Shown here: positions 10,702-22,691 of the stretch, piece by piece
Layout of the letters: every line of letters begins with the position of its first letter
How positions within the stretch are numbered: position 1 is the first letter of the stretch
IMG/VR virus record: IMGVR_UViG_3300042868_005166
Span: 1-30,904 of that record
Direction: 5' to 3' (one strand)
DNA: 30,904 bases
DNA from: a virus
Program-made: the position numbers and the translations under genes
Notes under the pieces: generated by a model
Seen by the model: only the letters and a program-made list of their open reading frames with translations
The model's database searches: none
Told to the model about the DNA's origin: nothing

Positions 10702-10727
10702 CCCCCGGTGTCGTTTGACACCGGGGG
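10702..10727 (+). terminator. Hairpin terminator-like structure after the capsid gene
   Basis: CCCCCGGTGTC (10702-10712) pairs perfectly over 11 bp with GACACCGGGGG (10717-10727) across a GTTT loop. It sits 19 bases after the capsid stop. There is no T-tract (GGAAAGTC follows), so it is not a canonical intrinsic terminator. U-less hairpins of this type have been described in actinobacteria, and it could instead protect the 3' end of the capsid mRNA. Its 3' arm contains the end of the -35 box of the next promoter. Confidence 0.6.
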
Positions 10728-10743
10728 GAAAGTCAGGTAGAAT
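10715..10743 (+). promoter_or_regulatory. Consensus sigma70-type promoter for the glycosyltransferase operon
   Basis: TTGACA at 10715-10720, a 17-base spacer and TAGAAT at 10738-10743 give a near-perfect housekeeping promoter facing right. The start is expected about 10750, leaving a leader of about 33 bases before the glycosyltransferase ATG at 10783. The -35 box lies in the loop and 3' arm of the hairpin at 10702-10727. Confidence 0.8.
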
Positions 10744-10744
10744 A

Positions 10745-10779
10745 AGTCTGGGCAAGTATGGCCTAATCCAGACTGGAGG
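10745..10779 (+). promoter_or_regulatory. Leader hairpin abutting the glycosyltransferase RBS
   Basis: AGTCTGG (10745-10751) is complementary to CCAGACT (10768-10774), and the ribosome-binding GGAGG (10775-10779) follows directly. Spacing from GGAGG to the ATG is only three bases, shorter than usual. If transcription starts near 10750 part of the 5' arm would be missing, so the hairpin would mainly form in read-through transcripts. This offers a possible way to treat the two transcripts differently (inference). Confidence 0.5.
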
Positions 10780-10782
10780 AAT

Positions 10783-12021
10783 ATGAAAGTCCTAGTATGG
10801 GGCACTGCTGAGCAGGGGCCCTGCGCCTACTTCCGTGGGCATATGTTCGATGAAGAGTGGAAGAAGATGGGCATCGAAGTCCGCCACATCGACAAAGTCA
10901 ACTTCATTGCTAAAGACGAAGCAAAGGGAATGACGCAACAGGAGGCGATGGCCAAGGGCTTGCTCTCCGTTGATACCAGCGATATTGACTGGGCGGACGT
11001 TATCATGTTCCGCCGATACTACAACTGCTCCGCCAAGTGCGATACCTGCGGCGCAGCGAGTAAGGACCCGCAGTTCATCACGGGCCATGAGCACGAGATG
11101 AAGGTCCGAGACTCAATCACTGAGTGGATGTGGCCAGCCTTCGAGAGCGAGAGCAACACGAAGGCGATGATCTACGAGACGGACGACAATCACTTTCAGA
11201 TCCGTTCGTGGAATGGTTACTCACCGGATGTCGCCGCAGAGCGACCGCTCATTGAGCGGATGGCAAAGCGAGCAGACCTCATGACAACTAGTACCGGTCC
11301 CATCAAGGATGCGTACGGGTACCTAAACAATAACATTAAGGTAATTAGAAATGCAATCGATCCTTCGATTTATACGTCAAGTCGTCCTCGCCCCGAGCAT
11401 GGCGGCCAACGCCCTCGCGTGGTCTATTACGGTAGCACCGCGAGAATGCGGGACTACGCAGGATATCCCAGCGGGGTTGGCGGTAAGTGGGAAGGCGGAT
11501 ACGCCGGCAAAGCGATTGAAGACCTCCGCAAGGAACTCTGGAACGTCTTCATCGGAGTAAACCCGGGCACGGAGCACGTCATTGCTCCGTTCTTTGACGA
11601 GGCTTACCCATACGTTGAAAACATTCGAGGGTTTGCGGAGACGCTTACAGGAAGCCACGCAGACGTCGGCATTGCGCCGCTTGGCGGAGACTCCTTCGAC
11701 AAGTGCAAGTCGGAACTCCACTGGTTGGAGTACGCAATGGTCGGAGCGGCATTTATCGGTGAACGATTCAAGTACGGGGAGGCCCCGTATTCCATGGTCC
11801 GCCACGGGGTGGACGGAATGCTCGCCAAGGGGCGACAGGAATGGTTCGACGCCGTCAAGGCAGTCGTGCGAAGCAAGGATCTACGAGAGCAACTGGCAGG
11901 CGCTGCGAAGGAACGGGTGCTCAAGGAATACAACTACAAGGACAGAGCAGTCGAGTGGGCAGACGCCTTTAAGTGGGCAGTAGAGAATAAGGGGATTTGG
12001 AAGAATGGCAGAAACACTTAG
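10783..12021 (+). CDS. Glycosyltransferase, GT-B fold (GT4-like)
   Basis: This 412-aa protein looks like a two-domain GT-B glycosyltransferase that moves a sugar from a nucleotide sugar to an acceptor. The N-terminal domain (about 1-190) ends in the KVIRNAIDPSIY linker typical of GT4-type enzymes. The C-terminal domain has the donor-site pattern ADVGIAPLGG...KCKSELHWLEYAMVGAAFI (about 293-325), followed by HGVDGMLA and a C-terminal helix (REQLAGAAKERVLKEYNYKDRA). An unusual CxxxCxxC (Cys 82, 86, 89) in the N-terminal domain could bind a metal. It has its own consensus promoter and lies between the capsid and adaptor genes, so capsid or virion glycosylation is a tempting role. Modification of host surface is the alternative. 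The acceptor cannot be told from sequence. Confidence 0.75.
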   Translation: MKVLVWGTAEQGPCAYFRGHMFDEEWKKMGIEVRHIDKVNFIAKDEAKGMTQQEAMAKGLLSVDTSDIDWADVIMFRRYYNCSAKCDTCGAASKDPQFITGHEHEMKVRDSITEWMWPAFESESNTKAMIYETDDNHFQIRSWNGYSPDVAAERPLIERMAKRADLMTTSTGPIKDAYGYLNNNIKVIRNAIDPSIYTSSRPRPEHGGQRPRVVYYGSTARMRDYAGYPSGVGGKWEGGYAGKAIEDLRKELWNVFIGVNPGTEHVIAPFFDEAYPYVENIRGFAETLTGSHADVGIAPLGGDSFDKCKSELHWLEYAMVGAAFIGERFKYGEAPYSMVRHGVDGMLAKGRQEWFDAVKAVVRSKDLREQLAGAAKERVLKEYNYKDRAVEWADAFKWAVENKGIWKNGRNT

Positions 12022-16283: not shown

Positions 16284-17420
16284 ATGGCTTCAGATATCGA
16301 CAACGATATCGCCATGCTCCGAGGCAAAGGCCTCTCGTTCTCACAAATTGGCAAGATGTTGGGCATGACCAAGGACGCAGCCCAGAAGCGTTTCGTACGA
16401 TTTGACAAGCAGTTGAAAGACAGTTATACTCTTGGAAGTCTTCCAAAGGGAGTACTTCCTAAGGAAGTAGATAATTCTAATAATAGAAATATATATACTT
16501 CCTTAGGAAGGGTGCCACATGTCATTGAGCCAGTGGAGCCTGTGAAGGTTAAGTACCTGTCCCGTGTTGGGAAGCCTACCTCCTTGACCCGAGGCGAGTT
16601 GGTCGTTGCCGCAGGCGACTTCCAGTTCCCATTCGAGGACGGTGATGTCTTTGCTGCATTCCTAACGTTCCTTGCAACGGAGCGTCCGGACCGCATCGTA
16701 CTCACTGGAGATATCCTCGACCTGACTAGCGTATCCTCGTACGACAAGGACCCACGACTCGGTCTCCCTGTTCAGAAAGAACTCGCTCGCGCTCACCTAC
16801 GGCTCGCGGAAATCCGCGCTGCTGCTGGGAAAGAGGCGAGCATTTTGTTTGTCTACGGAAACCACGAGGCCCGCTTCTCCAAGTGGCTGGCAAAGAAGGC
16901 CCCTGAATTGGTAGGCCTTGTTGATGCCAACGGCGTGGAGTTGCTCTCGTTGGCCAACCTGCTGCGCTTCGACACACTGGGGATCCAGTCGTGCCTCGAC
17001 GAACAGCCAGTGTTCAACGGACCAGAGCATCTGCGTTCGTACTACAAGATCACGACAGACCTTATCGCCACGCATGGCACGTACTCACGCAACTCGGGCG
17101 GGGCTGCATCAATCCTGCCTATCGCTGAAGCGGCGGGCGTGTCGGTTGTCGGCGGGCACGATCACTCACAGGGTATGGCATTCCGAACGGTGGGTGGCTT
17201 TGCTGACCTACCAGAGAAGAAGATCGTTGCCATCTCGACGGGCATGATGTGTCAGCGCACGGAACTTGGGTACCTTGCGCAACATCAGGTCAGCCGATGG
17301 TCGGCTGGCTTCTCAGTCATTGAACTCTGGGGTGAGCAGGCAGGCGAGTGGCAGGCTGACTTCGCTTCGTGGACGGGATCTGCACTCGCATGGCGTGGAC
17401 GCAGGTACGAAGGCAAGTGA
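16284..17420 (+). CDS. HTH domain fused to calcineurin-like metallophosphoesterase
   Basis: This 378-aa protein has AGGAGG just before its ATG. Residues about 1-45 (MLRGKGLSFSQIGKMLGMTK) look like a resolvase/sigma-type helix-turn-helix. About 48-90 is an Asn-rich linker with odd codons. Residues about 105-340 are a metallophosphoesterase: GDFQ (Asp112, Gln114), GDILD (Asp143), GNHE (Asn193, His194), THG (His264) and GHDH (His292, His294). The family normally has Asp-x-His in the first motif, and here the His is Gln, which could change metal use or activity. Substrates in this family are phosphodiesters or monoesters in nucleic acids, nucleotides or proteins, and the substrate here is unknown. 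A fused DNA-binding domain suggests action on DNA. A consensus promoter and hairpins lie inside the gene at the domain junction. The stop overlaps the GTG of the next gene. Confidence 0.78.
   Translation: MASDIDNDIAMLRGKGLSFSQIGKMLGMTKDAAQKRFVRFDKQLKDSYTLGSLPKGVLPKEVDNSNNRNIYTSLGRVPHVIEPVEPVKVKYLSRVGKPTSLTRGELVVAAGDFQFPFEDGDVFAAFLTFLATERPDRIVLTGDILDLTSVSSYDKDPRLGLPVQKELARAHLRLAEIRAAAGKEASILFVYGNHEARFSKWLAKKAPELVGLVDANGVELLSLANLLRFDTLGIQSCLDEQPVFNGPEHLRSYYKITTDLIATHGTYSRNSGGAASILPIAEAAGVSVVGGHDHSQGMAFRTVGGFADLPEKKIVAISTGMMCQRTELGYLAQHQVSRWSAGFSVIELWGEQAGEWQADFASWTGSALAWRGRRYEGK
16402..16430 (+). promoter_or_regulatory. Consensus promoter inside the HTH-phosphoesterase gene
   Basis: TTGACA (16402-16407), a 17-base spacer and TATACT (16425-16430) match a strong housekeeping promoter, facing right. 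Transcription would begin about 16437 at the first of three hairpins. It lies in coding sequence, so chance cannot be excluded, but the spacing equals that of the promoters at 10715 and 19572. It could drive the HAD/RmlD/epimerase genes downstream. Confidence 0.6.
16432..16510 (+). repeat. Three short inverted repeats in an A/T-rich insert at a domain junction
   Basis: TTGGAA/TTCCAA (16432-16446, 3-base loop), ACTTCC/GGAAGT (16454-16468, 3-base loop) and CTTCC/GGAAG (16498-16510, TTA loop) lie within 80 bases. The second and third are variants of the same palindrome and flank an A/T-rich stretch. In frame this stretch encodes an Asn-rich linker with AGA, ATA and TTA codons that are rare in the neighbouring genes. 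Confidence 0.65.
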
Positions 17421-17809
17421 GCATTGACGAAATCATTCAGCGTTCCATCGCCGTTGACTTCGATGATACACTAGCCATCGAGGTCATGGACGAGATCGTG
17501 CCGACCAAGGGCGCCAAGGATGCGATGATTAAACTCTGGAACGCAGGGTACCTCATCGTGATCCACTCGTCCCGGGCATGGGAGGGCTTCGCCGACCGTG
17601 GCGAACGCACGCGCTGGATGGCAGAGTGGCTGCACAAGCACCACATCCCATACCACAAGATCCACACCGGGTTCGGAAAGCCGACCGCGATTGCGTACAT
17701 CGACGACAAGGCGATAAAATATGACGACAACTGGCCGGAGATTGCCAACTGGCTCATCGCACGCAGAGGCGTGAAGATGACTGGCGGAAAGACGGGAGTG
17801 AAGAAGTGA
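17417..17809 (+). CDS. HAD-superfamily phosphatase-like protein
   Basis: This 130-aa protein is called from the GTG at 17417, which overlaps the phosphoesterase stop as GTGA and has AAGG four bases upstream. An in-frame upstream start would overlap the previous gene by 50 bases and is less likely. The HAD signature is clear: VDFDDTLA (Asp14 nucleophile, Asp16 acid/base), a Ser in VIHSSR as motif II, and YIDDKAIKYDDNW as the acidic motif IV, with a small cap. HAD enzymes transfer or remove phosphate. At the head of a nucleotide-sugar cluster it may remove phosphate from a sugar phosphate, but other substrates are possible. The overlap with the next gene suggests co-translation. Confidence 0.75.
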   Translation: MSIDEIIQRSIAVDFDDTLAIEVMDEIVPTKGAKDAMIKLWNAGYLIVIHSSRAWEGFADRGERTRWMAEWLHKHHIPYHKIHTGFGKPTAIAYIDDKAIKYDDNWPEIANWLIARRGVKMTGGKTGVKK

Positions 17810-18600
17810 TTGTTATTCTTGGCACGGGGCAGGCTGCCCAACACATTGCCGATCCACTACGGGAGAGGGGCATCCCCTATCTGTTCCTCTCCCGCAAAGA
17901 CTGGGCCGACCGTGAGGAACTGATTGGCCTAATCAAGGATGCCAACCCAAAGGCAGTCATCAACTGTGCTGCTCAGCGGGACATTGCGCTCTGTGAAAGC
18001 AAGCCGCACGAGGCCGACGAGGCGAACGTGTACATCCCGCTCGCGGTCTCCGAGGCTGGCTTCCGACAGGTGTACATTAGCACGGACTATGTCTACGACC
18101 TCAACGAAAAGAACCGGACGTTGCATGAGGAAGAGCCTAGCCATGGGGCACTGTCCGTGTATGGGCAGAGCAAGTTGCGCGGCGAGCAGGTAGTGCTGGA
18201 TCGTGGCGGCATCGTCGTCCGGATCAGTAGCCCGTTCGGCCCACATAAGTCTCCATTCAAGGCATCGTTCGCTGACTTCGCAATGAGCAGCCAGAACAAT
18301 CTGGAACTGCCGTGCGACCAACACTTCAAGCCGACGTACATGCCAGACGCTGCGCCTGTAATCGTCGACCTTGCGCTCGATGGTGATCCCGGGATCTACC
18401 ACGTAACCAACGAGGGCACGACCGACTGGGCAGTGTTCGCAAGTTTCGTTCGTGAGCAGGTAAGGAACAAGGCAAAGGTCATGGCAGTAACGCGCAAGGA
18501 TAAGACCCGCCCAATGTGGGGCAACCTAAAGAATACTAAACTACCGGCACTCCGACACTGGGCAGAGGCAGTGCAGGAGTATGTGAGGAAGGGACTATGA
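17806..18600 (+). CDS. RmlD-like dTDP-4-dehydrorhamnose reductase family protein (SDR)
   Basis: This 264-aa protein is an extended short-chain dehydrogenase. The Rossmann start MIVILGTGQAAQ gives the GxGxxA dinucleotide loop. STDYVYD (92-98) is the characteristic RmlD motif, and YGQSK (Tyr119, Lys123) is the catalytic pair. RmlD enzymes reduce the 4-keto group of a dTDP-6-deoxyhexose with NAD(P)H. At 264 residues it is slightly short for the family. It starts with GTG in a GTGA overlap with the HAD gene and ends in an ATGA overlap with the epimerase, so all three are probably made together. The exact sugar is unknown, since no RmlA or RmlB is visible. Confidence 0.75.
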   Translation: MIVILGTGQAAQHIADPLRERGIPYLFLSRKDWADREELIGLIKDANPKAVINCAAQRDIALCESKPHEADEANVYIPLAVSEAGFRQVYISTDYVYDLNEKNRTLHEEEPSHGALSVYGQSKLRGEQVVLDRGGIVVRISSPFGPHKSPFKASFADFAMSSQNNLELPCDQHFKPTYMPDAAPVIVDLALDGDPGIYHVTNEGTTDWAVFASFVREQVRNKAKVMAVTRKDKTRPMWGNLKNTKLPALRHWAEAVQEYVRKGL

Positions 18601-19571
18601 AAGCACTGATCACTGGCAACCTTGGATACGTCGGGCCACTCGTGGTCCGGCAGATGAAGGATGCAGGCATCCACACTGTCGGGCTAGACACCGGATGGTT
18701 CCTGCCGACCTTCGACCTGACCGATCACGCAGACCATCTACCGGACGAGCAACTGTTCCTTGACCTGCGTTCGGATAAGCAGGCGATGCTGCCGTCCAAC
18801 GTGGACGTGGTGGTGCACCTTGCTGGCCTGTCGAACGACCCGCTCTCGGAGATCGACGACACCCTGACCAAGCGCATCAACGTGATCGGGACGATCCGTC
18901 TCATGGAACTATACCCGGAAGCCAGGCACGTCGTCGCCTCCTCGGCGTCGGTCTACGGGTCAACGGACAAGTATCATTTCTCGGAAGAGGGGGATGCGAC
19001 TAAGCCGCTGACGGCATACGCCCGGGCAAAGGTAGCGGTCGACGAGTACATCTCTTCACTCGACAAGACCTCGGACGAGTACGACGCCATCTGCCTACGC
19101 TTCGGTACGCTGTGGGGCTGGAGCCCGAACATGCGCCGGGACATCGTAGTCAATGCCTTCTGCTGGCAGGCGGCGAAGAACCGAGAGGTGGCCCCTGCCC
19201 AGAACGCACGGCGACCAATGCTTCACGTCAAGGATGCTGCCCACCTTTTGGTGGCGGCGGCTACGACCCGGCATCGTGGCATTGTGAACTGCGCAACGGA
19301 GAACACGACAGTGCTCGAGATTGCCGACAGGGTGGCACGGGCTACAGAGTCGGCCCTTGTGCCATGCCCAGAGAGCAATGCTGACGCCCGGGACTACTGG
19401 CTGGATACCCAGCGGATGTCGACGACCATTGGTCAGGGGCACCCGTTCACCTACCTAGAGCACGACAAGGAGATCATGAGGGTCTTCCGCACGGCGCAGG
19501 CAATGGGTGAGGAGTATCCGACCCGTATCCAGCGTGTAAAGCAGATCATCGAACAGGACGGACGTTTGTAA
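18597..19571 (+). CDS. NAD-dependent sugar epimerase/dehydratase (extended SDR)
   Basis: This 324-aa protein has the extended-SDR features TGNLGYVG (nucleotide loop, 6-13), HLAGLSNDP (about 73-81), SSASVYG (114-120) and YARAK (Tyr140, Lys144 catalytic pair), with a C-terminal substrate domain containing RPMLHVKDAAHLL. Such enzymes epimerise, dehydrate or otherwise oxidise nucleotide sugars. The AGLSNDP pattern is common in a WcaG-like group of epimerases. Coupled to the RmlD-like gene and followed 36 bases later by a new promoter, it closes the sugar operon. The substrate cannot be told. The product would feed the phage or host glycosyltransferase (inference). Confidence 0.75.
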   Translation: MKALITGNLGYVGPLVVRQMKDAGIHTVGLDTGWFLPTFDLTDHADHLPDEQLFLDLRSDKQAMLPSNVDVVVHLAGLSNDPLSEIDDTLTKRINVIGTIRLMELYPEARHVVASSASVYGSTDKYHFSEEGDATKPLTAYARAKVAVDEYISSLDKTSDEYDAICLRFGTLWGWSPNMRRDIVVNAFCWQAAKNREVAPAQNARRPMLHVKDAAHLLVAAATTRHRGIVNCATENTTVLEIADRVARATESALVPCPESNADARDYWLDTQRMSTTIGQGHPFTYLEHDKEIMRVFRTAQAMGEEYPTRIQRVKQIIEQDGRL

Positions 19572-19600
19572 TTGACAGGCCCCGCGTGGGGCTGTATACT
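19572..19600 (+). promoter_or_regulatory. Consensus promoter giving a probable leaderless transcript
   Basis: TTGACA (19572-19577), a 17-base spacer and TATACT (19595-19600) form a near-perfect promoter in the short gap after the epimerase gene. The predicted start falls on or next to the ATG at 19607, so the mRNA would lack a 5' leader. The spacer contains a palindrome, GCCCC-GCGT-GGGGC (19579-19592), which could be an operator or the stem of a terminator for the upstream sugar operon. Confidence 0.8.
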
Positions 19601-21840: not shown

Positions 21841-22159
21841 CGCTGAACGCGCTCGAAGGGGCAAGAACAACCGCAAGAGGGGCAACTCCATCGAGTTAGC
21901 CGTCGCCAAAATGATTGGCGGCAAGCGTGTTGGGATGTTCGGCGGAAAGGTCGACGTGGAGAACGGACACCTAGAACTACAGATCAAGAGCGGGGGCACG
22001 TTCCCCGAGCGGATCTGGGATCTGATCCAGTCGATAGAGTATCGGTCGGACAGGCTGCGTGGGTCAGTCCACGTAAGCGCAGAAGGCGCTGGAACAAAGC
22101 GGCGCTACATGGTAACATTTGATTTGGAGGAGTATCTCAATGACGAACCATCTCGCTAA
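21833..22159 (+). CDS. Small PD-(D/E)XK nuclease, Holliday-junction-resolvase-like
   Basis: This 108-aa protein has the pattern RGNSIELAVAKMIGGKRVG-M-FGGKVDVENGHLELQIKSGG: an N-terminal helix with Glu, an Asp in GGKVDVE and a Q-x-K catalytic strand (LQIKSG), as in phage-type Holliday-junction resolvase and related endonucleases. The usual Glu-x-Lys is Gln-x-Lys, known in some members of this fold but possibly affecting metal binding. It would resolve recombination or packaging intermediates together with Erf and the Cas4-like nuclease nearby. It overlaps the next gene start at 22140 by 20 bases. Confidence 0.65.
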   Translation: MTDAERARRGKNNRKRGNSIELAVAKMIGGKRVGMFGGKVDVENGHLELQIKSGGTFPERIWDLIQSIEYRSDRLRGSVHVSAEGAGTKRRYMVTFDLEEYLNDEPSR

Positions 22160-22691
22160 CGTTTCCCTCGAGCCGAGGGTCATCCAGAACGGAGTCTATC
22201 AAGACTCTCGTGGGTACTTCCTTGAGATCGTCAAGGACCCGTACCGATCCATCCCGGGCTTCAGTGTCCGTCAAGCGAACGCATCGTGGTCGCTAGCCGG
22301 CGTGTTCCGTGGACTGCATGCTCAACTCTTCATGGACAAAGCGATGATGGTGTCGTCTGGCAAGGCGCTCATCTTTGCTGTCAACATTGACCCGATGTCA
22401 AAACTTTACGGTCAGGTAATCTCGGAGGAGATGGAGGCTGGCGACGGCAAGTTGTTCTACGCGCCGTGGTGGTGGGCCCGAGGGTTCATTGCCATCACCG
22501 ATGCAACGGTCACGTACCTCTGCTCCGCTGCATACAATGGTGCGCATGAAGTTGCAGTAAACTATCGATCATTCCCCGAGGTTGAACAACTTGTAAGCAA
22601 GCACGATGTGACGATCATCTCCGAGAAGGATACGATCTCTCCGCTTGCTGACAAGGATGCACTTGAACTCTGGGTGAAGGGAGCCAAGTGA
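22140..22691 (+). CDS. RmlC-like sugar 3,5-epimerase (cupin)
   Basis: This 183-aa protein starts at the ATG at 22140 with GGAGG nine bases upstream, inside the previous gene. The family pattern is visible: DSRGYFLEI (22-30), VRQANASWS (43-51), GVFRGLHAQ (55-62; His60 is the likely general base) and LFYAPWWWARGF (105-116), the last corresponding to the usual PPGxAHGF but with Arg in place of His. RmlC epimerises dTDP-4-keto-6-deoxyhexose at C3 and C5, before RmlD. It is separated by the recombination genes from the RmlD/epimerase cluster but probably acts in the same pathway. Its changed motif may indicate a different substrate. Confidence 0.78.
   Translation: MTNHLANVSLEPRVIQNGVYQDSRGYFLEIVKDPYRSIPGFSVRQANASWSLAGVFRGLHAQLFMDKAMMVSSGKALIFAVNIDPMSKLYGQVISEEMEAGDGKLFYAPWWWARGFIAITDATVTYLCSAAYNGAHEVAVNYRSFPEVEQLVSKHDVTIISEKDTISPLADKDALELWVKGAK

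Follow-up and report, generated by a model that had tools for sequence, protein, structure and literature searches.

The window analysed here is a 30,904-nucleotide stretch of viral DNA (positions 1 to 30,904 of IMG/VR record IMGVR_UViG_3300042868_005166), and on its plus strand, at 16284 to 17420, lies an open reading frame for a 378-residue protein that combines an HTH domain with a calcineurin-like metallophosphoesterase domain. This gene hosts the element described below and stands at the boundary between the structural genes and the DNA-metabolism genes. In profile searches the PF00149 match of the product exceeds the family cut-off, and phrog_221 is matched across the catalytic domain with an E-value of 3.5e-35; by sequence, the protein is a phage calcineurin-like metallophosphoesterase belonging to phrog_221, and its metal-binding motifs (GD, GNHE and GGHDH) are unchanged among relatives. 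The family is widespread, with 867 phage records matching the window enzyme. AlphaFold places helices at residues 2-10, 15-22 and 26-41 and the start of the enzyme domain at about residue 101, while the linker between them is predicted to be disordered (pLDDT about 30). The HTH domain modelled alone reaches a pLDDT of 89 and resembles Lrp, NarL and sigma region 4 in shape (weak E-values, TM up to 0.9). The full-length model is moderate, and because its pLDDT is only 61 no enzyme-level claims are built on it. Homology to the lambda O protein was not found, the profile matches being to metallophosphoesterase and weak HTH-type models only.

The linker contains a promoter followed by three palindromes, with an A/T-rich stretch using AGA, ATA and TTA codons at the junction of the HTH and enzyme domains, as the earlier note had described. 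The promoter, of sigma70 type and identified by motif match and in the alignment of relatives, occupies 16402 to 16430 on the plus strand, with TTGACA at 16402-16407, a 17-nucleotide spacer and TATACT at 16425-16430, and agrees with the consensus at 11 of 12 positions. Promoter-like matches at a 9/12 threshold are not rare in the window (five found against 3.3 expected), and the linker promoter ranks among its best. The remaining parts are unstranded. At the expected transcription start lies a GGAA/TTCC dyad, TTGGAAgtcTTCCAA (16432 to 16446; arms TTGGAA at 16432-16437 and TTCCAA at 16441-16446), and the alignment reveals a similar GGAA..TTCC arrangement, with indels, in most relatives. Dyad 1, TACTTCCTAAGGAAGTA, follows at 16453 to 16469 (arms ACTTCC at 16454-16459 and GGAAGT at 16463-16468), and dyad 2, TACTTCCTTAGGAAGGG, at 16496 to 16512 (arms CTTCC at 16498-16502 and GGAAG at 16506-16510), the latter recovered both in the alignment and by an inverted-repeat search. 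They are separated by the A/T-rich stretch (16470 to 16495), a candidate DNA-unwinding element according to the stability scan and the alignment, the conserved first part of which is GATAATTCTAAT; the AGA, ATA and TTA codons are located in this part and in dyad 2. Although the palindromes had been recognised individually, it had been overlooked that dyad 2 is the reverse complement of dyad 1 over 15 bp, so that the two pair into a perfect inverted repeat (16455-16469/16496-16510), the only perfect one in the window with arms of at least 13 bp and a spacer of up to 60. These sites fall in the linker that follows the predicted DNA-binding domain, an assignment drawn from its fold. A tRNA search returned none.

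Relatives of the gene were collected from IMG/VR (51 loci, then two more) and sorted into four groups by their N-terminal domain and linker; none were found among the GTDB species genomes. Group 1 has seven distinct members (the window, L005, L007, L008, L049, L052 and L071), all of which carry the linker element. Group 2 shares the same HTH, with a nearly identical recognition helix, but at the equivalent position it has an unrelated C/G-rich repeat array of GGGGGA-type units, present in one to four copies 19-21 bp apart, whose copy number changes in-frame. In groups 3 and 4 the N-terminal domains are different ones and no such element is present. In L013, L015 and L040-L048 the phosphoesterase domain is joined to unrelated N-terminal domains and several of these lack a DnaB match; exchange of the N-terminal domain seems to go along with that of the replication module. 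The N-terminal linker of two group 4 members (L040 and L045) carries an in-frame duplication, DIQDGRR(S/F)NGRRSAADIQDGRRFNG.

Several lines of comparison point to constraint on the DNA itself. In codon alignments the group 1 promoter reads TTGACR-17-TAYAMT in all seven members, at the same codon positions and with a spacer that is always 17; its consensus score is 11-12 of 12 in six of the seven contigs and 9 of 12 in the last. A conserved tyrosine is always followed by T or N, a choice that preserves the -10 hexamer, and the six positions separating this tyrosine from the conserved aspartate are variable. When codons were randomised, the promoter match had a P of 0.005-0.15 per sequence, values that are not independent given that the sequences are related. 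The block CTTCCTAAGGAAGTAGATRATTCTAAY - N14 - AATACTTCCTWWGGAAGTAG is kept across group 1 with few changes, and the distance between dyads 1 and 2 is exactly 43 bp throughout, while neighbouring codons carry indels and the promoter-to-dyad distance varies by about 20 bp. Synonymous-codon identity in group 1 amounts to 0.90 in the element, as opposed to 0.52 in the rest of the gene and to 0.81 in the best of 311 same-shape blocks elsewhere. Furthermore, the DNA identity of the element exceeds that of the enzyme domain in 21 of 21 relative pairs, even though the linker protein is predicted to be disordered. Similarly, synonymous-codon identity reaches 0.95-1.00 in the group 2 linker compared to 0.62 for the whole gene, and this constraint occurs without a group 1-type promoter. 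Groups 3 and 4, which served as controls, display no excess linker constraint. Within the enzyme domain, positions 16983-17045 of the window also have raised synonymous-codon identity in group 1 (0.77) and not in the other groups.

On these alignments, the linker very probably harbours a functional DNA-level element, and the sequence comparison supports a promoter with palindromes under selection as DNA, more than a protein linker. The earlier note had offered two explanations, a small mobile or regulatory insert and a nested transcription unit giving a small RNA or an HTH-less enzyme. A mobile or recent insert is disfavoured by the presence of the element at the same place in every HTH-bearing group 1 relative and, since pattern scans of IMG/VR recovered the paired and the group 1 elements in this gene family only, the paired one among 2.9 million viral contigs, and relatives show no presence/absence variation, we consider it unlikely. 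In the same collection a lone 17-mer dyad occurs in 22 stretches, those outside the family amounting by a rough estimate to about the number expected by chance. A scan for the C-rich motif of group 2 returned eight stretches, mostly known group 2 contigs; the two that were new correspond either to this gene or to a contig that ends within the linker. Because groups 1 and 2 are constrained at the equivalent place and the groups with other N-terminal domains are not, the linker appears to be something other than an ordinary one or a recent insert. As for the nested unit, a transcription start is plausible in view of the conserved promoter, but its proposed products did not hold up: an HTH-less enzyme started at the in-frame GTG (16512-16514) is unlikely, as the other distinct relatives read GTT, AGA or ACT at this codon and none of them has a start codon there, and the structured small RNA is treated below.

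Among the seven group 1 contigs, the window included, duplex stability over 40 bp reaches its contig-wide minimum at the linker in five, and in the remaining two the linker lies within the top three instability peaks; the C/G-rich arrays of group 2 create no duplex-stability minimum at the linker. GC skew at fourfold sites climbs from negative to positive across the gene in all seven group 1 contigs (same-strand genes, z 1.3-3.7) and flips once more around 24 kb, where the coding strand switches. This change could stem from differences in codon usage between late and early genes; it is a weak, confounded sign, and for this reason GC skew was rejected as evidence sufficient by itself for an origin. 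A DnaB match is found in every tested group 1 or 2 contig except the short G006; it is absent from all five group 4 contigs and from G015 of group 3, and in G016, also of group 3, it is more distant. The co-occurrence of the HTH with DnaB may reflect a single ancestry. A family-A DNA polymerase was not detected in any of 22 contigs from groups 1-4.

The reading that we favour, with a probability of roughly 0.5, is that the linker DNA is a cis-acting phage replication origin, or part of one, inside the gene of its own putative initiator. It resembles an embedded origin because an upstream promoter, a pair of symmetric sites and a stretch that melts easily come together in the gene of an HTH protein. 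The HTH of the phosphoesterase would bind the paired dyads, which at 43 bp are about four helical turns apart, and the A/T-rich stretch between them would melt, aided by transcription from the upstream promoter, which would thereby prime or activate replication. The phage DnaB-type helicase could then be loaded at the melted stretch, after which a host polymerase would copy the phage genome.

Origins within initiator genes are known from other phages. In lambda, iterons and an A/T-rich tract lie in the middle of gene O, lambdoid phages differ in iteron number, which alters the length of O, and the extra iterons of Stx phages add 13 residues to the protein (PMC7466680). The window is alike in having symmetric, protein-binding-like sites and an A/T-rich tract inside a gene, conserved as DNA and placed in the linker after a predicted DNA-binding domain; transcription runs through the lambdoid origin as it may here, a DnaB-type helicase is used there and a phage-encoded one is available for loading here, and the in-frame variation in iteron number is comparable to the copy-number change of group 2. 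The two differ in that the C-terminal part of the window protein is a metallophosphoesterase and not the C-terminal domain of O, that the window has two dyads with the tract between them whereas lambda has four iterons with the tract beside them, and that in the window the promoter sits inside the gene and binding is predicted. In SPP1, oriL in gene 38 consists of direct repeats and a DNA unwinding element, and the phage encodes the DnaB-type helicase gp40 (PMC6316719). The window would parallel this in combining repeats and a candidate unwinding element in a putative initiator gene with a phage DnaB-type helicase; however, gp38 has no detected relation to the HTH-phosphoesterase, and SPP1 also has oriR, whereas only one site was found in the window. 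Rickettsia palindromic elements and similar inserts likewise place palindromic DNA at tolerant positions within open reading frames. Unlike these, the paired element is not dispersed, and all its occurrences fall in this gene family.

More distant homologues are known from mycobacteriophages. Gp47 of the cluster A mycobacteriophage Bxb1 and gp48 of A10ZJ24 share the phrog_221 enzyme domain at about 25% identity, in alignments that start at about residue 53 of the query and leave out the HTH; these genes are not known to carry an embedded element, and Bxb1 gp47 additionally directs a serine integrase. Bxb1 gp47 is reported to be required for phage DNA replication (title of Savinov 2012, as cited in PMC12287305), while one mycobacteriophage can do without its homologue in one host (PMC12287305), which counts against an origin, as does the existence of homologues without the N-terminal HTH. 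The constrained array of group 2 at the equivalent place would support an origin, the sequence parallel being incomplete in that the array is C/G-rich and without a melting minimum; the similarity of the HTH helix in groups 1 and 2 despite their differing repeats counts against it.

The main rival, built from the same parts and in our judgement possible but rather unlikely, is an internal promoter whose transcription would drive the downstream nucleotide-sugar and recombination genes, with the dyads as repressor operators, possibly for autoregulation by the HTH-phosphoesterase. In its favour, the promoter is near-consensus and conserved and the dyads lie at about +10 to +75, and both the Lrp/NarL/sigma-region-4 shape of the HTH (weak E-values) and the location where structural genes meet DNA-metabolism genes are in keeping with it. 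However, the other promoters in the window and in six relatives lack further copies of the dyad, the spacing of the dyads is fixed while their distance from the promoter shifts by about 20 bp, the group 2 linker is constrained without such a promoter, and the exonuclease gene already has a separate conserved promoter. The latter, a second TTGACA-17-TATACT at 19572-19600 right before the exonuclease gene, is conserved in L007, L008 and L052; its spacer contains a GGCCCCgcgtGGGGC dyad that is not evident in those contigs. A further promoter, TTGACACCGGGGGG..TAGAAT, follows the capsid gene at 10715-10783 and is succeeded by a hairpin close to where the glycosyltransferase gene begins; every one of the seven group 1 contigs has the TTGACAYCGGGGGGAA promoter, with hairpin arms that vary from contig to contig. 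The window also encodes nucleotide-sugar enzymes (RmlD-like, epimerase and RmlC-like) and a glycosyltransferase at 17806-19571, 22119-22691 and 10783-12021.

An element acting as RNA, in which hairpins of the promoter's transcript serve as a small RNA, a put-like antiterminator or an attenuator, is improbable. The hairpins begin at the expected 5' end, and the single-strand fold of the linker beats dinucleotide shuffles (z -6.9 as DNA and -5.7 as RNA in the window), being very strong also in L005 and L071, but it is missing from L007 (z -0.9), L008 (z -0.4) and every group 2 member, and an Rfam search gave no match. Since L007 and L008 form the long hairpin only weakly and no base pair has changed on both sides in compensation, the conserved object is, as far as the alignments tell, a pair of double-strand dyads and not an RNA fold; in dyad 1 the outer three base pairs are intact in all seven members and 91% of pairs are kept. 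A site for packaging, recombination or partition, bound by the HTH protein or a host factor, appears quite improbable as well. Its paired symmetric sites occur at one place per genome, and several group 2 contigs (L034-L039 and L060, two of them of 41 kb) start or stop within the C-rich linker; yet group 2 contigs from other samples read through it, and the ends, which look like assembly breaks at C-runs, are probably due to assembly or sequencing breaking off at repeats, so a packaging end was rejected. Moreover, inspection alone places a small-terminase-like HTH gene at another site, close to the large terminase, and the annotated genes include no integrase or partition genes. Finally, an unconstrained linker that is A/T-rich and palindromic by accident would agree with the predicted disorder of the protein, but is very improbable, being contradicted by synonymous-site conservation above the rest of the gene in two groups and in neither of the two control groups.

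To conclude, we tentatively suggest, at somewhat less than even odds, that the HTH-metallophosphoesterases of this family of uncultured phages form a new class of replication initiators with their own origin in a coding linker, and that lineages have swapped the origin type, A/T-rich paired dyads for G-rich phased repeats, at the same position of the gene. Phage metallophosphoesterases are common and one of them is reportedly needed for DNA replication; if true, such a class would link this reported role with origin recognition. The presence of the enzyme and a candidate origin in one gene would make the mechanism testable with the purified HTH domain and 120 bp of DNA, and a short in-gene DNA signal of this kind can be recognised from metagenomes alone through its synonymous-site conservation.
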